A stretch of DNA of 64,000 bases from Colwellia sp. (lineage in GTDB: Bacteria; Pseudomonadota; Gammaproteobacteria; Enterobacterales; Alteromonadaceae), in assembly GCA_002733765.1 (NCBI GenBank), contig NVWU01000017.1, positions 1-64,000 of the forward strand, written 5' to 3'. Shown in pieces: positions 3,337 to 41,809 of this stretch; position 1 is the first letter of the stretch, and each line of letters starts with the position of its first letter. The notes under the pieces were generated by a model. That model did not search any database and was not told where the DNA came from. It was given only the letters and a program-made list of their open reading frames with translations. The translations under genes were made by a program, and so were the position numbers.

Positions 3337-4779
3337 TTGACTAAAACAAAAATCAAAACGGAAACGAAACAAGAAAACCTTCAAACTAACTTTGATTATG
3401 ATGCAATAATTATAGGTACTGGGCCTGGGGGAGAAGGTGCCGCGATGAGATTAGCAAAAGAAAATAAAAAAGTTGCTATGATTGAACGCCACCATCAAGT
3501 AGGTGGAGGTTGTACTCATTGGGGAACCATTCCTTCAAAAGCCCTAAGGCACTCAGTTAGGCGTATGATTGAGTTTAATTCCAATCCTTTATTTAATCCT
3601 TCCGAAAAAAAAGTAAAACTAACTTTTGAAAATATTTTACAGCACACCACGAAAGTAATTAGAGACCAAGTAAGAATGCGTACTGGTTTTTATGACCGTA
3701 ATTATGTGGATGTTTTTCATGGTTCGGCCACTTTTGTAGATAAAAATACGTTAAAGATTACGAGTAAAGATGGGGTCGAAGAATTTAAAAGTGCTGATAA
3801 TATTATAATTGCTTCAGGTTCAAGACCATACCGTCCAGATGATATAGATTTTACCCATCAGAGGGTTTATGACTCGGATACCATTTTATCGTTAAAGCAT
3901 GATCCAAAAAGCATCATTATTTATGGCGCTGGCGTTATCGGCTGTGAATACGCCTCTATATTTAGAGGGTTAGGCTGTAAAGTTGACTTAATAGATACAC
4001 GTGATCGGTTATTATCCTTCATGGATGCAGAGATGACTGATTCACTAAGCTATCACTTTTGGAACTGTGGCATTGTCATTCGCCATGATGAAGAATACGA
4101 GTCTATTGTTGCCACAGATGACAGTGTAGTATTAACACTTCAGTCGGGTAAAAAAATGAAAGCCGATTGTATTTTATTTGCTAACGGTAGAAGCGGAAAT
4201 ACCAATACTCTCGCCATTGAAAATACGGGTTTACTACCAAATTCTCGAGGCTCATTAGAAATAAATAACCAGTATAAAACAGCCGTAGATAATATTTATG
4301 CTGTGGGTGATGTCATAGGTTATCCAAGTTTAGCAAGTGCTGCTTATGATCAGGGAAGAATTGCTGCGGGTTATATTCTTAAGCTGCCTACCCAGGCACA
4401 GTTAATTGAAGATATTCCTACCGGAATTTATACTATTCCTGAGATGTCTTCTGTGGGTAAAACTGAACAACAATTAACTGCCGCAAAAATACCTTACGAA
4501 GTTGGTAGAGCATCTTTCAAACATCTAGCCCGCGCTCAAATAGGCAATAGTGCCATTGGTAGCTTAAAAATATTATTTCATCGTGAAAGCAAAGAAATCT
4601 TAGGTATTCATTGTTTTGGCGAAAATGCAGCTGAAATAATTCACATTGGCCAAGCCATTATGCAACAGAAAAATGGGGGTAATACCATTGAATACTTCGT
4701 CGAAACAACCTTTAATTATCCAACAATGGCTGAAGCATTCCGCGTAGCCGCATTAAATGGCTTGAATAGATTATTTTAA
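3337..4779 (+). CDS. sthA: Soluble pyridine nucleotide transhydrogenase SthA
   Basis: A FAD-containing flavoprotein that moves hydride between NADPH and NAD+ in the cytosol and balances the two pools. Its 480 residues include an N-terminal extension of about 20 residues relative to E. coli (466). The FAD-binding [10 protein letters not shown] lies at 27-36. The active-site loop [13 protein letters not shown] has one cysteine (C59) where disulfide reductases have CxxxxC, the known sign of SthA. The NAD(P)-binding loop [11 protein letters not shown] (about 204-214) and the dimerization domain (from about residue 360) follow. The start is TTG at 3337 with GGGGA 8 nt upstream. A bidirectional terminator separates it from the convergent malic enzyme gene. 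Confidence 0.95.
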
Positions 4780-4824
4780 CTATTTTTTAATAACCTTTAT
4801 TATGTAAAAAGTATCAACATAAAA

Positions 4825-4863
4825 CAAAAAACGCATAATATGATTAATATTATGCGTTTTTTT
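4825..4863. terminator. Bidirectional terminator between sthA and the malic enzyme gene
   Basis: CAAAAAACGCATAATAT and ATATTATGCGTTTTTTT form a long perfect stem with A and T tracts on opposite sides, so it can end transcription from both convergent genes. Confidence 0.9.
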
Positions 4864-4884
4864 ATATTCTCACCTAAGAAAAAA

Positions 4885-6126
4885 TTACTGCATGTAATTA
4901 TCAGGTAAAGGCAGCGCCGCAACACCCGATTCTACCGCAGCTTTTGCTACCGCTAAAGCGACTGCAGGTAATAAACGCGGATCCATTGGTTTCGGAATAA
5001 TATAGTTGCGGCCAAAAACTAGTGAGCTTTCACCAGAGGCTGCTAACACTTCACTTGGTACTTCTTCTTTTGCTATTGCTCTAATAGCATGTACCGCTGC
5101 AACTTTCATTTCATCATTGATAGTACGAGCACGAACATCTAAAGCACCACGGAAGATGAAAGGAAAACAAAGTACATTGTTCACTTGGTTAGGGTAATCA
5201 GAACGACCTGTCGCAATAATAGCATCATCACGAGCAGCTAACGCCAATTCAGGCTTTATTTCAGGATCAGGGTTTGAACAAGCAAAAATAATAGGTCTAG
5301 GCGCCATTAATTTAACTTGTTCAGCAGTTAATAAATTAGGACCCGACACTCCCACAAAGACATCAGCTCCTTCAATGGCATCATCTAAGGTACGTTTGTC
5401 AGTATTATTTGCAAACAGTTTTTTATATTCATTTAGATCATGACGACGTGTATGTACTATGCCTTTAGTATCAAGCATATAGATTTTTTCACGCTGAGCA
5501 CCACACTTGATTAATAACTCCATACAAGCAATGGCAGCAGCACCCGCACCCAAACAAACGATATTCGCTAGTTTAATGTCTTTACCTTGAATATCTAATG
5601 CGTTGATCATACCCGCAGCAGTAACAATGGCAGTACCGTGTTGATCATCATGAAATACAGGAATTTTACAACGTTCTATTAAGGCTTTCTCAATAACAAA
5701 ACATTCTGGTGCTTTAATATCTTCAAGATTTATACCACCAAAACTATCGGCAATATTCGCAACGGTATTAACAAACTCTTCAACTGTTTTGTGTTTAACT
5801 TCAATATCAAACGAGTCAATATTAGCAAAGCGTTTAAATAATAATGATTTACCTTCCATTACTGGTTTAGATGCCATTGGACCTAAATTACCTAAACCTA
5901 AAATAGCAGTACCATTAGTGATAACGGCAACCGTATTACCTTTTGCCGTATACTTATAAACATCATCGGGATTAGCGGCTATTTCTCTTACTGGCTCAGC
6001 AACGCCGGGGCTATAAGCCAGTGATAAATCATCACTAGTTTCAGCCGCTGTAGTTAATGAAACACTGATTTTCCCCGGTGTAGGTAAGGCGTGGTAATCA
6101 AGTGCTCGTTGACGAAAGTCTGTCAT
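4885..6126 (-). CDS. Malic enzyme, short form without phosphotransacetylase domain
   Basis: Oxidative decarboxylation of malate to pyruvate and CO2 with NAD(P)H formation. The 413-residue protein holds the malic N-terminal domain (YSPGVAEP at about 39-46, then the metal/substrate region ending in FHDDQHGTA) and the NAD-binding domain (VCLGAGAAAIAC). E. coli MaeB carries an extra phosphate acetyltransferase-like C-terminus that is missing here, so this resembles the compact bacterial form. Cofactor preference cannot be read with certainty. I chose ATG at 6126, which has GGGAA 6-7 nt upstream, over the in-frame TTG at 6138 that overlaps that site. Its own promoter should lie in the 226-bp gap towards purA. 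Confidence 0.92.
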   Translation of the reverse strand: MTDFRQRALDYHALPTPGKISVSLTTAAETSDDLSLAYSPGVAEPVREIAANPDDVYKYTAKGNTVAVITNGTAILGLGNLGPMASKPVMEGKSLLFKRFANIDSFDIEVKHKTVEEFVNTVANIADSFGGINLEDIKAPECFVIEKALIERCKIPVFHDDQHGTAIVTAAGMINALDIQGKDIKLANIVCLGAGAAAIACMELLIKCGAQREKIYMLDTKGIVHTRRHDLNEYKKLFANNTDKRTLDDAIEGADVFVGVSGPNLLTAEQVKLMAPRPIIFACSNPDPEIKPELALAARDDAIIATGRSDYPNQVNNVLCFPFIFRGALDVRARTINDEMKVAAVHAIRAIAKEEVPSEVLAASGESSLVFGRNYIIPKPMDPRLLPAVALAVAKAAVESGVAALPLPDNYMQ

Positions 6127-13013: not shown

Positions 13014-14930
13014 TTAACTCTTATTTGTTTGTAGCTTAGCCTTTAATTGCTTAATTTCAGATGTGAGGTCAAGGGGAACAGAATTCAAGAGCACAGCCTC
13101 TATTAATTCATCTGGCAACTCTATTTTAGCACTTAGCCACAACGTTTGAGCTTGCTCAAGACTATATTCAGTATCAATCATCGCATTGGCAATCGCACAA
13201 CAAATAATATCACGATCAGAATCAACCGTTTGATTATTGCTGTCATTTTCGCGTTTTACTAAGGTATCAATAACACTAATAAAACTGCTACTCACATCTT
13301 TATCGCGCAATATTGCAGGAAACTGTCGTATTTGTAATTGCTGCTTGTGGTTAGTTTTATTTTGAATAACGCAAACAATACCCGCTAATTCAAGCAACCC
13401 TTGATGGTTTTTTACTGTATTCATTTGTTGCTCAGAAAGCGTAAACACTACAGGTAATAATAATGGCTGGCTAACTAATTTAGTGGATGAATCCGAGCTA
13501 CTTTGTTGCCAACTTATTGCTATTTTATGTCGATTAATCTGATAAGACAACTCACAAAGAGATAACAGGTGTAAGTTGTTTTTTTGCTTAAAAACACCAT
13601 AACTACCTTGTTTAATCGTCAGAAAAAAAGACTCTACAACCTTATCGCTGTTAACTATCACAGACAATTTGTCATCAATGGCGTGCTCTTCATGCTCAAC
13701 GGCAATAACAGGCGTCATCAATTGTTGGTAGTTCTGAACCGCGGCACGGCTTAGCGAATCACGTTGACCATAGCCTCCTTTAGCAGCATTAGACGTATAA
13801 GTAGTATCCTTCACTTGCTGCAAAGGTTGAATATAGTCTGGACGTGAGTATTGCACATTATCAGCACTAGGCTCTTTGGAAAATACCACTGACGGAGTCA
13901 TTTCCGCTGCATCATTAAGCTCTAAATCTAACGAATTACTCATTAGCGCCTTGTGGCAAACTGAATAAATGAAATCATGTACATAACGGCTTTGATGAAA
14001 ACGCACTTCATGCTTAGCCGGATGTACATTCACATCAACTTCTCGATAATCAAGGGCTAAAAACAAGACAAAAGCGGGATAAGTATCTGGTGGTAATAAA
14101 TCGGCATACGCTTGACGAATAGCATGATTAATTAACTTATCGCGCATCATGCGCCCATTGACATAACTATAACTGAGATCATTTTGATTACGGGCGAAAC
14201 TAGGTTTAGCAAGCCACCCCGTAAAACGCATATTATCGTGCTGACAATCAATTTCAATGGCATGATCTATAAATTTTTGTCCGCATACCATAGCGACACG
14301 CTTAGCATTTTGTGCCTGATTCGTAGCCGCTCGATATTGGCGCATAGTTTTACCATTATGAGTTAAGGTAAAAGTGACGTCCAAATGCGCTAAAGCAAGT
14401 CGACGAATAACCTCATCGATATGATTAAATTCAGTTTTTTCAGTACGTAAAAATTTGCGCCGAGCAGGTGTATTAAAAAACAAATCTAATACTTCAATGG
14501 TTGTGCCGTCAGGATGTGCCGCAGGGGTAATCGTTACAGTCATATCTCGGCCTTCAGCATTTGCTTGCCAAGCGGTGTCTTGATTTTCAGGCTTAGACGT
14601 TAAGGTTAAACGTGCCACCGAACTGATACTCGCCAACGCTTCACCGCGAAAACCTAAACTATTAATGGCCTCTAGATCATTAAGGTTTTTTATTTTACTC
14701 GTTGCATGACGGCTCAGTGCTAAGGTCAATTCGTCTTTAACAATGCCGCTACCATTGTCCGAAATACGAATACGTTTAACGCCACCTTTATCTACCTCAA
14801 TATGAATGGTGGTAGCACCCGCATCTAAGCTATTTTCAATTAATTCTTTAATAACTGAGGCAGGTCTTTCTACCACTTCTCCGGCAGCAATTTGGTTGGC
14901 TAAACGCGCGGGTAGTATTGCAATTGTCAT
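13014..14930 (-). CDS. mutL: DNA mismatch repair protein MutL
   Basis: Links MutS mismatch recognition to strand incision and unwinding. The GHKL ATPase domain fills residues 1-330, with motif [13 protein letters not shown] (about 31-42), motif II DNGSGI and motif [13 protein letters not shown] (about 94-103). The C-terminal dimerization domain covers roughly the last 190 residues. It lacks the DQHA-type metal motif of endonuclease MutL proteins, so it is the MutH-dependent gammaproteobacterial type. The linker (about 350-450) is long and poorly conserved. The 638-residue length is in the usual range. The amidase gene upstream ends 36 nt before its start. Confidence 0.95.
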
Positions 14931-14966
14931 AATACGGTAATGCTCAAAAGTGTATATTCAAAAAAA

Positions 14967-16304
14967 TCATCCCGCTCGAGGAATTTTCAAGGTTTGACCA
15001 ATGCGTAATGCATTAGATTTTAGATTGTTTACCGATTTCAGGGTCGCCATTGAAATATTATAGCGTTGCGCTAACACCGACAAAGATTCACCACTACGCA
15101 CTTTATGACTTTTATAACCAATGGCAGCAAAATAACTACCGGTTAATGGGTGCTCCATAAAATGATTACGAATACCACGGTGAATTGCACTTGCTAATAA
15201 TTGCTGATGCTTAGACCAGGTGAGGTTTTTTTCTTCTCTATGATTAGAAATAAAGCCTGTTTCAACTAGTATTGACGGAATATCTGACGATTTAAGTACG
15301 GCAAAGTTACCATTTTGCGGTGTCTTTTTATGCAATTTAGTTACTTTTCTTAACTGAGAAATAACCTTATTCGCCACACCAAAACTAACGCCTAAAGAAT
15401 GCTCTTTACTCATATCAGCCAAGGCCAGCGCTAAATGACTGTCTGAGGTGTTTTTAATCACGCCACCGCCTCCACCGAGTAATTCAGATTTTTTTTCCCG
15501 CTTTAATAACCATCGCGCTAATTCAGACTCTGCCCGTTTTTGCGTAACAACCCAAACTGAAGCACCGCTGGGGCCTGAAGTACGAAAAGCATCGGCATGG
15601 ATTGAAACTAAAAAATCAACATGTTTCTGTCTTGCTAAACTGGTGCGACGGTTTAAATCAACATAATAATCGCCTGAGCGGATCATCACCGCTTTCATGC
15701 CTTTTTCTTTATTGATTAAAGTTTGTAGTTTTTTTGCAATCGCTAAGGTAACTCTTTTTTCATAAGTACCTTTAGCACCAATAGAGCCTGGATCTTCACC
15801 ACCATGACCAGCATCAATGCCAATAATAATATCACCTAAGCTGACTTTTGGTTTAGATGCCACTTTGGTGGCTCTATTTTTATCGTATAAATCAATAACT
15901 AATCGATTGCCGTATTGTCCAGCTGGCGCTAAAGGAAAAACAGAAAGTTGGTAAGACTTTGTCAACTCTAACACTAAACGAGTACTAGAGTTAGATTTGG
16001 CATTACTGGTACGAAACAGTTTGATACGAGGATCATGACGCGCTAAATTTTTTAGCGCAACATTGTTTCTAGTATTACGAAAGTCAATTACTAAGCGGTT
16101 AGGTTTACGTAAACTAAAGTATTTATAATCGGGTTTATGTTTAAGGTCAAAAACAATACGAGTATTTTCTGGTGCTGGCCAAACACGAATACCATCAATA
16201 CTATTTGTTGCAGTATTGCCTGCAACAACACTATTTACTGTCAATGAGGCCACAACCATTGTTAGCCAAAGCATCCCTGTAAACAATAGTGATAACAACC
16301 GCAT
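14967..16304 (-). CDS. N-acetylmuramoyl-L-alanine amidase (AmiB/AmiC type) with AMIN and LysM
   Basis: A secreted peptidoglycan amidase that cleaves the bond between N-acetylmuramic acid and the stem peptide during septum splitting. After a signal peptide (about 1-29) comes an AMIN domain (about 35-140) that targets it to the division site. The Amidase_3 catalytic domain follows (about 165-390), with zinc ligands and catalytic residues in DAGHGGEDPG, the later YEKRVTL and VSIHADAF, and the final VETGFISN. One LysM repeat (HKVRSGESLSVLAQRYNIS) ends the protein. I prefer ATG at 16304, which has AAAGG 6 nt upstream, over the TTG at 16310. Its place between tsaE and mutL matches amiB in enterobacteria. 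Confidence 0.93.
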   Translation of the reverse strand: MRLLSLLFTGMLWLTMVVASLTVNSVVAGNTATNSIDGIRVWPAPENTRIVFDLKHKPDYKYFSLRKPNRLVIDFRNTRNNVALKNLARHDPRIKLFRTSNAKSNSSTRLVLELTKSYQLSVFPLAPAGQYGNRLVIDLYDKNRATKVASKPKVSLGDIIIGIDAGHGGEDPGSIGAKGTYEKRVTLAIAKKLQTLINKEKGMKAVMIRSGDYYVDLNRRTSLARQKHVDFLVSIHADAFRTSGPSGASVWVVTQKRAESELARWLLKREKKSELLGGGGGVIKNTSDSHLALALADMSKEHSLGVSFGVANKVISQLRKVTKLHKKTPQNGNFAVLKSSDIPSILVETGFISNHREEKNLTWSKHQQLLASAIHRGIRNHFMEHPLTGSYFAAIGYKSHKVRSGESLSVLAQRYNISMATLKSVNNLKSNALRIGQTLKIPRAG

Positions 16305-35907: not shown

Positions 35908-37056
35908 TTACATAGCTGCAAGGTACATCTGGCAAATTTCTTCGTGACTTGCTTGTTTAGGATTAGTTAAACCACACACATCTTTTAAGGCATTGTCAGC
36001 CAATAATGAAATATCATCAGCTTTAACACCTAACGTTTCTAATCCCGCCGGAATACCTACTTTTAGCGATAATTTTTCAATAGCACTGATGGCAGCATTT
36101 GCACCTTGCTCTGCTGACATAGCAAGTACATCAACGCCCATACTCTTGGCAATATCTTTTAATCTTTCTGGGCATACTTGTGCGTTATAACGTTGTACAT
36201 GCGGTAATAATACAGCATTACAAACGCCATGAGGTAAGTCATAAAAACCGCCTAGTTGGTGAGCCATGGCGTGAACATAACCTAAAGAGGCATTGTTAAA
36301 TGCCATACCAGCCATAAATTGGGCATAAGCCATTTGCTCTCTTGCTTCAATATTTTCACCATTATCAACCGCTGTTGGCAAATTGGCCTGAATAAGTTCG
36401 ATGGCTTTTAGTGCCACGGCATCGGTAATTGGCGTGGCTGCGATAGAAACATAGGCTTCAATTGCATGAGTTAATGCATCCATACCTGTTGCAGCCGTTA
36501 ATGAGGCTGGCATACCAACCATTAGTGATGGATCATTAACCGATAATACTGGCGTAGTATGTTTATCAATAATGGCCATTTTTACATGACGTTTTTCATC
36601 AGTAATGATAGCAAAACGTGTCATTTCCGATGCGGTGCCCGCTGTTGTATTAATGGCAATTAAAGGCAGTTGTGGGCTTTTAGATTGGTCGACACCTTCA
36701 TAATCGGCAATTGCTCCCCCATTACTGGCGACTAACGCTATACCTTTGGCGCAATCATGTGGAGAGCCCCCACCTAAAGAAACAACAAAATCACAATCAT
36801 GTTGTTTGAGTATTTCTAACCCATCATTAACATTACTTATTGTTGGGTTAGGCTGTGCTTTATCAAATACGATACTGGCAATTTGCTGCTGATCGAGTAA
36901 ATCAGTGAAATTTTTTACCACGCCTATTTTATTTAAAACGCTATCACTAACAATTAATCCCTGTTTAAATCCTTGCTCTTTTATATAATTAATAGCTTCA
37001 GCTAAACTACCACTGCCCATCATGTTTATAGATGGCATATAAAATGTTGAACTCAT
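35908..37056 (-). CDS. Iron-containing alcohol dehydrogenase (YiaY/FucO-like)
   Basis: A 382-residue group III alcohol dehydrogenase. The nucleotide-binding [11 protein letters not shown] lies at about 96-106. The metal-binding region contains [10 protein letters not shown], then [20 protein letters not shown], giving the expected Asp-His-His-His iron ligands. Such enzymes reduce aldehydes or oxidize short alcohols (ethanol, 1,2-propanediol, lactaldehyde) with NAD(H); substrate cannot be assigned. The gene stands alone on the minus strand with GGAG 7 nt before the ATG. Housekeeping-like codon use contrasts with the broken DNA to its right. Confidence 0.93.
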
Positions 37057-37449
37057 AATATTCTCCTTTAATTAATTAATTTATACCACGCAGAATAGTT
37101 GAACAGCTTGATCTAAAACATAAGCCCATCATTAAATATATTTAAAATGACAATAAAATCACTACGTTAACTTAAGATAGTAACTGCTCATAAAGTGGTT
37201 TTTTAGTTGATGAGGCTGGCAAAAGCCGTGATACTGGAGTTGGTAGTTATCGAGATAAGCAATCATGAAGCAAAACTGGCTATTCGAATAGCGTATGGCG
37301 GATAAAAAAAAGGAAAATGGGTGACTTAACTGAATGAAACGGACAGGTATGGCTAGCCTGTCGCAGAATCTGCCTTAATAACACAGCCAAACCTCCACTA
37401 TTTTTGAGCGTGTCAATTCTTTGGTGATTGTTTACCTATTAAGGAGGAA

Positions 37450-37720
37450 AGACACTTTTTGGCGTGGCTCAATAGTCAACGCAAATGGATTGGGTCGTTT
37501 ATGCGAAACGCCCCTTTGCTGGGCCACAAGCGGTATTGGCTTATCTATCGAGATACACACATCGGGTTGCCATCTCGAATTCTCGGCTGGTTGCTATGGA
37601 TAAGGAAACGGTGACTTTCAAGTGGAAGAATTATCGCGTAAAGGAGCAGAATAGGCAGCGCACCATGACGCTGACACACGATGAGTTTATCCGGCGTTTT
37701 TACTGCATGTCTTACCAAGT
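37450..37720 (+). pseudogene. IS91-family transposase fragment, frameshifted
   Basis: The stretch DWVVYAKRPFAGP, followed by YLSRYTHRVAISNSRL and the later FKWKNYRVK...TMTLTHDEFIRRF, is diagnostic of the C-terminal part of IS91-type Y2 transposases. Upstream, RHFLAWLNSQR is in another frame and reaches the conserved part only after a shift near 37483. Downstream, LLHVLPS continues in a third frame from about 37700. The N-terminal catalytic part with its two tyrosines and the IS ends are not visible. It is a decayed remnant and cannot move. Confidence 0.8.
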
Positions 37721-37963
37721 TCAATTCCCGCGGTTTCCTCATTGTGAGCCTTTCAGACATCATCCTTTCTATGATGAGCTGCTGATAGGTTTTGTGCACT
37801 GGCTGATATCTAAAAACCTTAACGAAGTGATCGTTAGTAAAGTGAAAATTTTGCATTTTGCTATGTATCTTTAGTGGTAAAAGTTAGCGTTCTGAGATGA
37901 AACACCACAGGCAGCAATGAGCTTTTAGTTCACATAGAGGCTGAACGATTTATTGGCAAATAA

Positions 37964-38011
37964 TTATTATCAAAAGCTTAAACTTTTTATCTATGGGGAA
38001 CGTCAGCTATC
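37964..38011 (+). repeat. Diverged dispersed repeat, copy B
   Basis: Partner of 30134-30181, with the same length and the same ends (TTATTATCAAAA ... GCTATC). It lies between the IS91 remnant and the VF530 gene in non-coding DNA. Confidence 0.4.
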
Positions 38012-38109
38012 GGGAAACTGCTAGAGGAATATGATTGTTAAGCCATGTCCTTTGTAGTTCAACACATACAAAAATTTTCAAATATTAATGTCTTCGGTGT
38101 GGCATAAGT

Positions 38110-38439
38110 CTATTTGTTTTTCGATGTTGGCCAAACAAAGGGAGCGGGCTTGGTGGAAGTTGTTTCTGCTACTGCTGTATTCTGGGCGAGTATCCCCCTG
38201 ATTAATTTACCCGTTTCTTTATGTTTACTACAAAATGTTTTTAGGTATAAAATTTCAACTCTACTGCGTGCCCAAGGGGTTGTACGCAGAAATTTCAAAC
38301 TTGATTTAAGACGCGGTTTATTGGTGAAACAACGAATATTAAGTAACTCACCCATCTTATCCCAACCAATTTTCTTCTCTAGTTCGGTTAGAATCTGTTC
38401 AAGTTTCACGCCGTGTAGCGGATCATTACTTTTATTCAT
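38110..38439 (-). CDS. VF530-family DNA-binding protein
   Basis: A 109-residue protein. Residues 5-60 match the VF530 (DUF2132) pattern: DPLHGVKLEQILTEL, GWDKMGELLNIRCFTNKP and SSLKFLRTTPWAR. The family is small, helical and DNA-binding by structural work on the Vibrio fischeri member; biological role unknown. The C-terminal 45 residues (after about 64) go beyond the usual length of roughly 75 and contain two cysteine-free basic patches; they might be an added tail created by a lost stop codon. The gene lies in an accessory region. Confidence 0.8.
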   Translation of the reverse strand: MNKSNDPLHGVKLEQILTELEKKIGWDKMGELLNIRCFTNKPRLKSSLKFLRTTPWARSRVEILYLKTFCSKHKETGKLIRGILAQNTAVAETTSTKPAPFVWPTSKNK

Positions 38440-38496
38440 AGCCTACCTAAGTTCAAAAATAGCATTGTAACAAGTTTCCTAAATATTGACAGACTT

Positions 38497-38598
38497 ATGC
38501 GTTTAACTCAGGTAAAAGTGCACCAAGAACTTTATGAAAAAGTTAATATCCCCAGTGAGCTTGAAGCTCACAATAGACCATACTTAGTTCTCCATTAA
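38497..38598 (+). CDS. Short ORF upstream of the integrase fusion, possible gene remnant
   Basis: A 33-codon frame ending 15 nt before the integrase start. Its end, ELEAHNRPYLVLH, resembles the beginning of small proteins such as ToxN/AbiQ-type toxins (NRPYLV), but the similarity is too short to name it. No good ribosome-binding site was seen. It contains the 17-bp palindrome at 38555-38571. It may be a leader or a truncated gene. Confidence 0.25.
   Translation: MRLTQVKVHQELYEKVNIPSELEAHNRPYLVLH
38555..38571. promoter_or_regulatory. 17-bp palindrome before the integrase fusion
   Basis: GTGAGCTT-G-AAGCTCAC is a perfect inverted repeat, 43 bp before the integrase start codon. It could be an operator or an RNA hairpin. 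Confidence 0.4.
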
Positions 38599-38608
38599 TA
38601 ACGGAGAA
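38588..38608 (+). promoter_or_regulatory. Hairpin that hides the integrase Shine-Dalgarno sequence
   Basis: TTCTCC pairs with GGAGAA across a 9-nt loop. GGAG is the ribosome-binding site, 7 nt before the ATG at 38614, so translation may be damped in the mRNA. Confidence 0.45.
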
Positions 38609-38613
38609 TAATC

Positions 38614-39831
38614 ATGTTTTCTTTAACCGTTTATAAACCAACTGAGCCTTGGAACAAAAATAAAATTGTAGGGCAAAAATTACCACTTAAACTACAACAA
38701 ATTTGGGCAATCCGAATCCGACTAGAATTAGTGAATAATATAAGAGATCTTGCACTTTTTAACCTTGCTATAGATAGTAAATTAAGAGGCTGCGATTTAG
38801 CTGCTCTAAAAATAAGGGATATTGCCCACGGGAAAACTATTCAGTCTAGAGCTATTATTGTTCAAAAAAAGACAGGATTGCCCGTTCAATTTGAACTTAC
38901 CGAAAATACACGTAAATCAATTCAAACTTTGATTATACATTTTCAACTAAGCCAAAATGACTATTTGTTTAAATCGAGAATTCATTCGTCAGCACATTTA
39001 TCAACACGGCAGTATGGAGGAATAGTCGATGCTTGGGTTTCAATGATTGGTTTAGACCAAACCCAATATGGGACTCATACGATGAAAAGAACCAAACCTA
39101 CATTGATTTACAAGAAAACTAAAAACCTGCGAGCATGTCAACTGTTGCTCGGCCATAAAAAGCTTGAAAGCACTGTACAATACTTTATTTTATCGATTCA
39201 TATCGATATTATGCCTTATTTATCAAAACTGAGTGTAATCATGCATGACAAAGATAAAGCATTTATTGCCTTAAGAAAATCACTCTGCTCATATGCTTCT
39301 ATCAGCGATGATACATGGCAGGTCTTTATTGCCATCTGTAAATTTAAATCGCTTACAAAACATAGCTTTCTTTATAATATTGGTAGTATTCCATCTTCTT
39401 ATTCGTACATCTATCACGGATTAGTTAGATGCTTTTCCTGTGATGAAAAGGGAAGTGAATATAATAAGATGTTTTTTGATGAAGGAACGTTCCCTGGTTC
39501 AATGACGGCCTTATTAGCATCTGCACCATCATTACTTGCTTTTGAAGCACTTGAAAACTCGTTAATCATTGAGATTGATTTTATAGCTTATCGAAAATTA
39601 ATGTTTCAAAATGACGAGTTGAAACTGTTTCAAATTAATTATTTAGAGAAAAATTGGTTGTTGGCAAAAGATGCTCGTGAAATTGAGATAGTACAAGAAG
39701 ATGCGACCGCACGTTATTTGCACTTTATTGATAAACATTTTTCGCTCATTGATCGCTTACCGCAATATCATATAGCTTCACACCTAGGCATTACACCCAC
39801 ACAATTAAGTCGTATTAGAAAAAACCTTTAG
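38614..39831 (+). CDS. In-frame fusion of a tyrosine integrase and a Crp/Fnr-family regulator
   Basis: One uninterrupted 405-codon frame. Residues 1-198 are a tyrosine recombinase of the short type that begins with a PW-rich head: WAIRIRLEL, LAIDSKLRGCDL (Arg I), YGTHTMKRTK, LLGHKKLESTVQY (His III and nucleophile Tyr190). In the second catalytic triplet the expected HxxR reads HTMK, so Arg II is Lys158. The family's last 15-20 residues are replaced. From Met200 or Met210 (39211 or 39241) a Crp/Fnr protein of about 196 residues follows, with a cyclic-nucleotide-type barrel (GSIPSSYSYIYHGLVRCF ... FDEGTFPG) and an HTH ending in LGITPTQLSRIRKNL. Strong GGAG precedes only the integrase start. A dyad at 39191-39208 sits at the junction. 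It may be two genes merged by decay, or a true fusion. Confidence 0.7.
   Translation: MFSLTVYKPTEPWNKNKIVGQKLPLKLQQIWAIRIRLELVNNIRDLALFNLAIDSKLRGCDLAALKIRDIAHGKTIQSRAIIVQKKTGLPVQFELTENTRKSIQTLIIHFQLSQNDYLFKSRIHSSAHLSTRQYGGIVDAWVSMIGLDQTQYGTHTMKRTKPTLIYKKTKNLRACQLLLGHKKLESTVQYFILSIHIDIMPYLSKLSVIMHDKDKAFIALRKSLCSYASISDDTWQVFIAICKFKSLTKHSFLYNIGSIPSSYSYIYHGLVRCFSCDEKGSEYNKMFFDEGTFPGSMTALLASAPSLLAFEALENSLIIEIDFIAYRKLMFQNDELKLFQINYLEKNWLLAKDAREIEIVQEDATARYLHFIDKHFSLIDRLPQYHIASHLGITPTQLSRIRKNL
39191..39208. promoter_or_regulatory. Crp/Fnr-type dyad at the integrase-Crp junction
   Basis: TATCGAT-TCAT-ATCGATA is a perfect 7-bp dyad with a 4-bp spacer, 2 bp before ATG 39211 and 32 bp before ATG 39241. 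The 5-4-5 core (TCGAT-N4-ATCGA) has the spacing of FNR/FixK-type boxes (TTGAT-N4-ATCAA). It may be the autoregulatory site of the Crp-like part. Confidence 0.45.
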
Positions 39832-39950
39832 TTTATCAACCTATGTAAATGAACTTGCCGCATAATATATTTATTATCTATTCATCAAGTCACCAGACAA
39901 TAATCTAATTTTGTTTGGTATTTATGAACGTATAAAAAACAAGCGATATT

Positions 39951-40580
39951 ATGATGAAATTATTAGATGCCTTACAGTGGCGTTATGCAGTTAAACAGTT
40001 TTCAAATACAAAAGTATCATCAACTGATCTAAGAGTATTAATGAATTCAGCACGTTTGAGCGCATCTTCTTATGGCCTTCAACCCTATAATATACTAGTA
40101 ATAGAATCGGCGACTTTAAGAAAAAAATTATTACCATTTTCATACGGCCAAAACAAAGTTGCCGACAGCTCACATTTAATTGTATTTGCTGCTCACAGCC
40201 AAGTAGGCAATGCTACCGTAGACCGTTATATAGACAAACATGTCCAAATCACAGGTAAATCTCATGAAGATCTCCGCAATTATTCATTACATATGAAGTC
40301 TGCTCTGAATAATAAAACTCTGGCCAACAAACAAGAGTGGGCGCACCAACAAGCCTATATCGCTTTAGGAAACTTCTTAACCTGTGCCGCAGCCATGAAA
40401 ATTGATAGTTGTCCGATGACAGGAATTGATACGGCTGGTTACGATACCGTTTTAGATTTGGATAAAAAAGGTTTAACCACCTCGGTAATTTGTCCTATTG
40501 GATATAGACATCAAGACGATACTCAGTCAACAGCTCCGAAAGTACGTTTTGATTATGATGAAATAATTCAGGAACTTTAA
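39951..40580 (+). CDS. NAD(P)H-dependent oxidoreductase, nitroreductase family
   Basis: A 209-residue FMN-dependent nitroreductase-fold protein. The N-terminus LLDALQWRYAVKQFSN, followed by SARLSASSYGLQPYNI, is the FMN-phosphate-binding pattern of NfsB/YdgI-type enzymes. Later AHQQAYIALGNFLTCAA and CPMTGID are also conserved. It would reduce quinones, nitroaromatics or flavin in the cytosol; the true substrate is unknown. The stop codon is one base from the GTG of the DUF606 gene, so the next two genes are in the same operon. No strong ribosome-binding site precedes the ATGATG. Confidence 0.88.
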   Translation: MMKLLDALQWRYAVKQFSNTKVSSTDLRVLMNSARLSASSYGLQPYNILVIESATLRKKLLPFSYGQNKVADSSHLIVFAAHSQVGNATVDRYIDKHVQITGKSHEDLRNYSLHMKSALNNKTLANKQEWAHQQAYIALGNFLTCAAAMKIDSCPMTGIDTAGYDTVLDLDKKGLTTSVICPIGYRHQDDTQSTAPKVRFDYDEIIQEL

Positions 40581-40581
40581 T

Positions 40582-41040
40582 GTGACTTATTTATCATTTT
40601 TGGCACTAGCAGCGGGGGCAGCTATTGCGATACAAGCAACGATGAATTCCCAATTAGGCGTTTTACTCAAAAGCTCAATGATGGGGACAACTATTGCATT
40701 TTTGTTTAGTCTGATTTTCACTATTTCAGCGATGTTAATCTCCGTTAAAAGTTATCCTAATTTGGATGAAGTAAAATCGGTACCGTTATATTTATGGTTT
40801 ACTGGTGGTGCGTTAAGTGCCTTTGGTGTCGGTATGTTTTATTATTTAATCCCTAAAATGGGGGTGGGTTCCATGATGTCTTATGCCTTATCTGGTCAGA
40901 TATTAATCGCTATTATAGCTAGTCATTTAGGTTGGTTTGACTTACCTGTAAAACCAATAAATACAGTCAAAATAACAGGAGTTATCTTACTCATAGTAGG
41001 TGTCTTATTAATTAACTGGGAGTCAACTTATGCACATTGA
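40582..41040 (+). CDS. DUF606 (YdcZ-type) membrane transporter-like protein
   Basis: A 152-residue protein with five predicted helices and the opening LALAAGAAIAIQATMNSQLG, typical of DUF606, a half-size relative of the drug/metabolite transporters. The end GVILLIVGVLLINWES is the usual last helix. Such proteins probably act as dimers; substrate unknown. It starts with GTG at 40582, right behind the nitroreductase stop codon, and its last 11 bases overlap the acetyltransferase gene. The tight packing suggests a small detoxification or export unit. Confidence 0.85.
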   Translation: MTYLSFLALAAGAAIAIQATMNSQLGVLLKSSMMGTTIAFLFSLIFTISAMLISVKSYPNLDEVKSVPLYLWFTGGALSAFGVGMFYYLIPKMGVGSMMSYALSGQILIAIIASHLGWFDLPVKPINTVKITGVILLIVGVLLINWESTYAH

Positions 41041-41809
41041 TCAAGCCAATATATTTAATCTTAAAAGCTTATGGAAGAAATATGGCTCACAAATACAGAT
41101 TTTTAATAATAATGACAAAAAAATACAGGCTCAGCCTGAGTTACATATAAATACCCTTTGGCCTCATCGTTGCTGGTTCAATGGTTCAATAATATTGAAT
41201 GATTTTTCATGGCTTTCAAATATTCCTGAAATGACAATTTTTCCTATCTGGCCAATGCTTGACGATAAAGGAAATAGCGTGGAAGCATCTACAGAACTTG
41301 AACTGATTGAAAAACAATTACAAAAGAATAATTGGCACTGTATGTTAGAGCAGACAGCTATGTTTTTAGCATTGTCTGATGATGCTAACGAATACCGAGT
41401 AGAAACACGCATTGGCTTTACCATAAAAAAAGTGGAAACACCTGATAACATAACTTTATGGCTTGGTATAGTGAGTGATGCTTTCGGTTATTCTGTTGAC
41501 CGAACAGTCATAGAAAAGTTGACTAACGAGCCTGATATGCAGATATTAATGGCCTATGAAAATAGTCAGGCCATTGCGAGTGCAATTCTATATAAAACGG
41601 GTGATATCATTGGTATACATCAATTTGGGGTTAAACAAGACTTTCAAGGTAAAGGTTTTGCTCACAGTTTTATGAAAGAAATAATCGCAGCTTGTCATTT
41701 GTGGCAAGGAAAGAACATCGTTTTACAAGCATCATCTTCAGGCAAACCACTTTATGAACAGTTGGGTTTTCAATCTCAATTTTTAATTAAAAGTTATCAG
41801 AGACAATAG
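41030..41809 (+). CDS. GNAT-family N-acetyltransferase
   Basis: A 259-residue protein. The C-terminal 110 residues form the GNAT fold, with the acetyl-CoA loop seen as HQFGVKQDFQGKGFAHSFMK (about 203-222, the Q/RxxGxG/A pattern is QGKGFA). The last strand and helix are LQASSSGKPLYEQLGF. The N-terminal 140 residues do not match a domain I recognize. The start ATG at 41030 lies inside the end of the DUF606 gene, with GGGAG 9 nt upstream. The substrate is unknown; the neighbours suggest a shared small-molecule job. Confidence 0.85.
   Translation: MHIDQANIFNLKSLWKKYGSQIQIFNNNDKKIQAQPELHINTLWPHRCWFNGSIILNDFSWLSNIPEMTIFPIWPMLDDKGNSVEASTELELIEKQLQKNNWHCMLEQTAMFLALSDDANEYRVETRIGFTIKKVETPDNITLWLGIVSDAFGYSVDRTVIEKLTNEPDMQILMAYENSQAIASAILYKTGDIIGIHQFGVKQDFQGKGFAHSFMKEIIAACHLWQGKNIVLQASSSGKPLYEQLGFQSQFLIKSYQRQ

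Follow-up and report, generated by a model that had tools for sequence, protein, structure and literature searches.

Does an open reading frame that joins a tyrosine integrase to a Crp/Fnr-type regulator encode a functional fused protein, or did two genes come into frame by accident? The question was raised by a 64,000-nt stretch of a Colwellia sp. contig (hereafter, the window), in which a single ATG-started frame of 405 codons (38614-39831) is free of stops throughout. The initial annotation had described it as one frame with an integrase half and a Crp/Fnr half, and this description was correct. When the joined frame was compared with Pfam, Phage_integrase was matched over residues 41-190 (48.4 bits; cut-off, 27.1), and the cNMP-binding domain was matched below threshold over residues 245-333. 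Elsewhere in the source genome (41 contigs), the one further match to the query was a 26%-identical integrase on contig C18. Comparison with relatives of both halves indicates that the frame is very probably an accidental, lineage-specific fusion, with a decaying integrase unit lying before a native regulator, and that the fused protein is probably meaningless. The features discussed are listed in Table 1.

Table 1 Features of the joined frame and its surroundings (positions in the window)
Feature	Position	Strand	Basis or remark
Fragment of Y2-type transposase (PF04986)	37485-37874	+	Domain match; IS91 link presumed
R-type site GGCAGCAATGAGCTTTTAGT, left end of VF530 segment	37910-37929	+	3 mismatches to pattern
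VF530-gene segment	37925-38567	-	90.8-97.8% identity to nine congeneric loci; gene at 38110-38439, minus strand
Left end of integrase unit (TGAGCTTGAAGCTCACAATAGACC...), common to other units	38552-38613	+	DNA alignments
Joined open reading frame, 405 aa	38614-39831	+	Frame and translation inspected
Solo tyrosine integrase remnant, 3' end missing	38614-39176	+	DNA homology stops at 39173-39176 (seven alignments) or 39186-39187 (two)
Lys158 codon, Arg II position (HTMK for HTMR)	39085-39087	+	Sequence and comparison with relatives
Break and presumed residual leader of regulator	39177-39240	+	DNA alignments; starts of regulator relatives
Tyr190 codon, ancestral nucleophile or chance TAC	39181-39183	+	Sequence and DNA alignments
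Crp/Fnr-type regulator, 196 aa, probable native start Met210	39241-39831	+	Free-standing relatives
Nitroreductase (PF00881), regulator neighbor in many relatives	39951-40580	+	
YdcZ-type exporter (PF04657), regulator neighbor in many relatives	40582-41040	+	
GNAT acetyltransferase, regulator neighbor in many relatives	41030-41809	+	

The integrase half is a truncated version of a 207-residue solo integrase. Its nearest relative in a search of 118 genomes was found in a congener (G011, 94% identity over 197 residues), and the named relatives from a scan of 84,980 species (Cognaticolwellia mytili, Colwellia chukchiensis, and Colwellia sp. MB02u-6) were 89-90% identical. The intact copies (L032-L035) have 207 codons and end in YLGIEVDDALEISESIDS or YLGIEVDDALDISESIDS, i.e., YLGIEVDDAL(E/D)ISESIDS. 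Where they carry this tail, the window reads STVQYFILSIHIDIMPYL, and the family tail is absent. The catalytic set of a tyrosine recombinase comprises Arg I, His, Arg II, and Tyr. The set is incomplete in the window: as had been pointed out at the outset, Lys occupies the Arg II position (residue 158), whereas HTMR was found in all five relatives compared (L003 and L032-L035). The region C-terminal to the nucleophile is also incomplete, the family tail being gone and DNA homology ending at 39173-39187. With its C-terminal tail missing and Arg II altered, this half would be dead as a recombinase.

The position of the break was less sharply defined than first described. DNA alignments of the window with L030, L032, L033, L034, L035, and L045 stop at 39176 and the alignment with L052 stops at 39173; these seven include a pair, L030 and L052, that is probably one contig (both 17,933 bp). 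The alignments with L003 and L050 extend to 39186 and 39187. Because homology ends ahead of the Tyr190 codon in seven alignments and beyond it in two, this codon may be ancestral or a chance TAC. The last helix had been said to be replaced right after Tyr190; the tail is indeed absent, but a break point after Tyr190 is uncertain, most alignments ending before that codon.

Along the branch leading to the window since L003, the integrase acquired nine synonymous and six nonsynonymous nucleotide changes, two of the latter in codon 189, beside the break, where homology is doubtful. The changes on this branch include R136G and R158K, both at positions that do not vary among the five relatives compared. 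With 445 nonsynonymous to 125 synonymous sites, neutrality predicts several-fold more nonsynonymous changes, and the integrase was thus constrained along most of the branch. Over the remnant, dN/dS between the window and L003 was 0.117 and no stop was present, which we count against an accident. A low dN/dS without stops would, as far as the sequences go, fit equally a recent break or a half still constrained, the two being indistinguishable. Stops were present in other integrase copies (e.g., L045 and L050) and in many matches of the 118-genome search, so decay is common in the solo-integrase family.

The regulator half appears to have kept its own start. Its closest relative (L036, 77.6% identity over 196 aa) begins at the equivalent of Met210, with MSDQNKAFIALR at its N-terminus and MHDKDKAFIALR in the window, and has an in-frame stop 12 nt upstream of that start. 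A stop lies at most 33 nt before the matched region in 13 of 22 regulator loci; the remaining nine have 42-114 nt of open frame ahead of that region, and a longer N-terminus is possible there, which we again count against an accident. From these starts we infer that the regulator is initiated at 39241. No strong ribosome-binding site is visible by eye before this position, in agreement with the initial annotation, but this is not a sign of fusion, since several stand-alone relatives also have none (by eye). The regulator, nitroreductase, YdcZ, and GNAT genes occur together in seven loci (L006, L037, L038, L039, L040, L043, and L046) and one or two of the three neighbors lie beside the regulator in further loci, so that the set is found in many, not all, relatives. 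The three were not seen next to the regulator in the closest relative, L036 (L083 in the wider view), a further point against an accident. The dN/dS of the regulator relative to L036 was 0.067, with dS saturated (1.72). As judged from these loci, the regulator is a free-standing gene, often at the head of a conserved cluster.

Whether other genomes carry the same junction had been proposed as a check, and none did in the sets searched with both halves. The 118-genome search included the source genome and gave matches in 65 genomes; in the 117 others, each match could be assigned to one of the two parts, integrase or regulator. Matches that ran past the integrase end crossed several stops (L013, 12-264; L030, 1-274; and weak ones in G073, G074, and G101). 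The scan of one genome per species (84,980 species) yielded 37 confirmed loci, each covering one half only. None of the 592 matching plasmid records covered 80% of the query, and 16 pattern matches in viral contigs included no relative. When positions 39100-39330 were used for a DNA search of the 39 genus genomes, seven matched. The source genome alone matched throughout; in G007, G011, G015, G022, and G035, the match was confined to the integrase side, and in G027 it covered 25 bp of the gap. This 25-bp match (96%) is embedded in long, unrelated open frames and was attributed to chance. Another candidate, the sequence GATTCATAT upstream of the regulator, possibly common to the window and L084, was too short for use.

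In simulations at local base composition, 27% of 18-codon gaps were stop-free; with one chance in three for the frame (27% x 1/3), an open junction is expected by chance in about 9% of cases, roughly 1 in 11. Under accidental fusion, a solo-integrase unit (left end, 207-codon integrase, and right end) would have landed upstream of the native Crp/Fnr regulator. A deletion would then have taken the last integrase codons, the right end of the unit, and all that lay between this end and the regulator; one event reaching from inside the integrase 3' end to the regulator leader would be the simplest history. The integrase frame would thereafter happen to stay open across the residual leader and continue into the regulator, and the working product would most likely be the 196-residue regulator translated from 39241. 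The initial annotation had offered, as one of its two readings, a decaying integron-like gene that has captured the expression of the regulator. A decaying gene before the regulator is right in outline, whereas capture of expression is a possibility taken up below. "Integron-like" describes a fair resemblance, but the integron tests applied here were negative (see below).

Its other reading, a sensor-controlled regulator built on a recombinase scaffold, found no support. A selected bifunctional protein, with a noncatalytic integrase fold as the DNA-binding module on a Crp/Fnr sensor, would be consistent with the open frame, with the low dN/dS relative to L003, and with the change at Arg II, as a dead enzyme could still bind DNA. 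Nevertheless, we consider it very improbable: the junction was seen in one genome only, R136G and R158K alter residues on which the five relatives compared agree, and the regulator is free-standing in the relatives seen and here keeps the start of the closest one. An assembly chimera or a sequence error near 39180 would have to be considered because the contig comes from a 41-contig assembly. Such an error, hiding a normal integrase end in another frame, had been named as a possible refutation. However, the right end of the intact unit (L032, 3601-3690) has no match anywhere in the window, so no frameshift can restore the integrase end; the break is internal to a 97.5-kb contig, and the genes that flank the regulator in relatives follow here in order. 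We therefore regard an artifact as very unlikely. Rather unlikely, on present evidence, is that the integrase remnant drives the regulator by transcription or translational coupling, replacing a lost native promoter. At most approximately 64 bp of native leader are left before 39241, a promoter-like match (TTGAAA-16-TATTTT, 39164-39191) spans the break, and the integrase start at 38614 is preceded by a ribosome-binding site that is good by eye. The good start context of the frame (ggagaataatcATG) is also counted against an accident. Promoter-like matches in the region are, however, at chance level (12 vs. 11.4 expected). A driving role for the remnant is compatible with accidental fusion and does not exclude it.

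The surroundings of the broken integrase point to a wider arrangement. The VF530 segment adjoins the left end of the broken unit directly. It matches nine loci, in full or in part (starting at 37925 in three of the nine and ending at 38567 in six, with L210 and L219 matching only 38090-38544), and homology is lost outside it, the flanks being partly common among the nine (L213 with L217 and partly with L216; L210 with L219). An integrase remnant lies beside the segment also in three of these loci (L213, L214, and L217). A search of the literature for VF530 together with Colwellia returned only Colwellia items. The Y2-type transposase fragment immediately precedes the R-type site. Its link to IS91 is presumed, as is the idea that the solo integrase might be an IS91 accessory; the latter was rejected, the long open reading frames around the intact integrases of L003, L005, and L032-L035 being unlike such a transposase by eye.

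Intact integrase units extend from approximately 60 bp before the start codon to approximately 57 bp after the stop codon, with similar ends and unlike flanks. In C. chukchiensis (L033, 1836-4776), the unit lies between two 100%-identical 1115-bp segments with the same ends, each carrying a pentapeptide-repeat-like gene (named by eye). In C. mytili (L032), the unit precedes a segment that carries AraC-like and EamA-like genes (named by eye). This segment (3662-5634) is 91% identical over 1974 bp to the reverse strand of L074 (12309-14281), from a genus other than that of the window, although L032 and L074 may share a genus with each other. It stops at the same ends in both, GCCACCAAAGCGGTCAT and CGGCAGCAATGAGCTT (the L and R sites), and its flanks differ. 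L074 also holds two 902-bp stretches with integrase (1945-2846 and 14858-15759), 99.6% identical, inverted, and approximately 12 kb apart. By eye, distant integrases of the same family on a Pseudomonas and an Escherichia coli plasmid (L075 and L076) also lie between short inverted repeats that are related in sequence (GGCAGCAATGGGTCG / CGACCCATTGCGGCC and AATGTCTGCAA / AGCGGACATT).

Both sites are directional and 24 bp long: GRCMGCWW-TGCCACCA-WWGCKGTC for L and GRCMGCWW-TGAGCTTR-WWGCKGYC for R. Solitary two-arm 24-bp sites were found at seven places in the 152 sequences searched and at none in one shuffle of each. With two mismatches, the L core gave 29 matches in the 118 genomes vs. three for the reversed pattern, and the R core gave 53 (50 places, three being counted on both strands) vs. 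two. With three mismatches, the 39 genus genomes gave 173 matches to the L pattern (reversed control, 39) and 134 to the R pattern (reversed control, 4); the patterns were built from some of the very genomes searched. The source genome has neither 24-bp core at two mismatches; at three, it has no L match (reversed control, 2) and two R matches. Among the matches listed, which cover 150 of the 173 L places and 116 of the 134 R places in 35 of the 39 genus genomes (G007, G008, G026, and G037 left out), 24 of 32 neighboring pairs within 6 kb run from L to R on one strand, 1.0-5.6 kb apart; six run from R to L (four of them 68-132 bp apart), and two are opposed. Directional segments with common ends in different contexts, the general criterion for cassettes, were thus found in the 24 of 32 pairs, in the 1974-bp segment, and in the VF530 segment.

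Seven integrase units have a hairpin close to their right ends, with 10 pairs and 82.9% of cells paired. Three of its pairs are changed on both sides, a number reached by 22 of 500 shuffles, and the hairpin is suggestive only. Rfam gave nothing at gathering score in 20 loci and nothing at E <= 1 in window positions 37000-40000. The arrangement of segments and sites resembles a cassette system, the link to the integrase being one of association. Tentatively, and with slightly less than an even chance of being right, the solo integrase may be the engine of an undescribed gene-cassette system that resembles integrons and is present in Colwelliaceae, perhaps more broadly in Proteobacteria. Cargo would lie from L to R, the integrase gene in the R-to-L gap would move as one more cassette, and the window would hold a decayed array of R-type site, VF530 segment, and broken integrase cassette.

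The fusion itself is ordinary. It illustrates how two genes joined in frame can pass for a designed fusion and why one must look at where the second gene starts in relatives. The solo integrase may be of wider interest, as it seems to be part of a gene-cassette system of marine bacteria that has been little described. In the literature searched, most subscription papers lying outside its coverage, no description of such an L/R system was recognized. If 207-residue solo integrases do move L/R segments, then a common gene, annotated on the plasmids seen merely as "tyrosine-type recombinase/integrase" or "site-specific integrase," would gain a job, and an integron-like route of gene exchange would exist that is invisible to attC searches.

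When compared with known systems, the integrase half falls among the solo short tyrosine-type recombinases/integrases of Proteobacteria. The plasmid-borne WP_008060324.1 and WP_001752951.1 belong to the same family; aligned with 96-100% of the intact C. mytili form, they show 65.0% and 66.5% identity. Unlike them, the window copy is truncated and has Lys at Arg II. For the regulator half, residues 224-404 could be aligned (E = 1.8e-11) with 3dn7, a Crp-like protein of solved structure (Cyclic nucleotide binding regulatory protein), but this half differs from regulators of this type in scoring under the Pfam cut-offs for cNMP_binding (22.5-24.7; cut-off, 27.5) and HTH_Crp_2 (12.7; cut-off, 27).

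Integrons combine an integrase (IntI), an attI site, and gene cassettes with attC sites (consensus RYYYAAC ... GTTRRRY). The Colwelliaceae loci are like integrons in that directional gene segments with short repeated sites at their borders lie close to a tyrosine recombinase, and unlike them in that the solo integrase sits between two sites. In the integron-integrase test, the best model, NF040815 ("site-specific tyrosine recombinase/integron integrase"), scored 48.4 vs. a cut-off of 220; the remaining integrase models matched were of Xer type and likewise far under cut-off. The RYYYAAC/GTTRRRY pair was present in none of five R-L gaps. In Xer-dependent pdif modules, short two-arm sites bracket genes; their site sequences presumably differ from those described here, and the Colwelliaceae loci have an integrase gene of their own nearby. 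The strand-biased circularizing integrative elements SE-6283 and SE-6945 are also marine gammaproteobacterial and carry tyrosine recombinases, according to their description (PMC9345347). The same description gives them four shared genes, two of which are integrases, and 19-bp imperfect inverted repeats at their ends, and it is by this four-gene set and these terminal repeats that they differ from the solo-integrase units.
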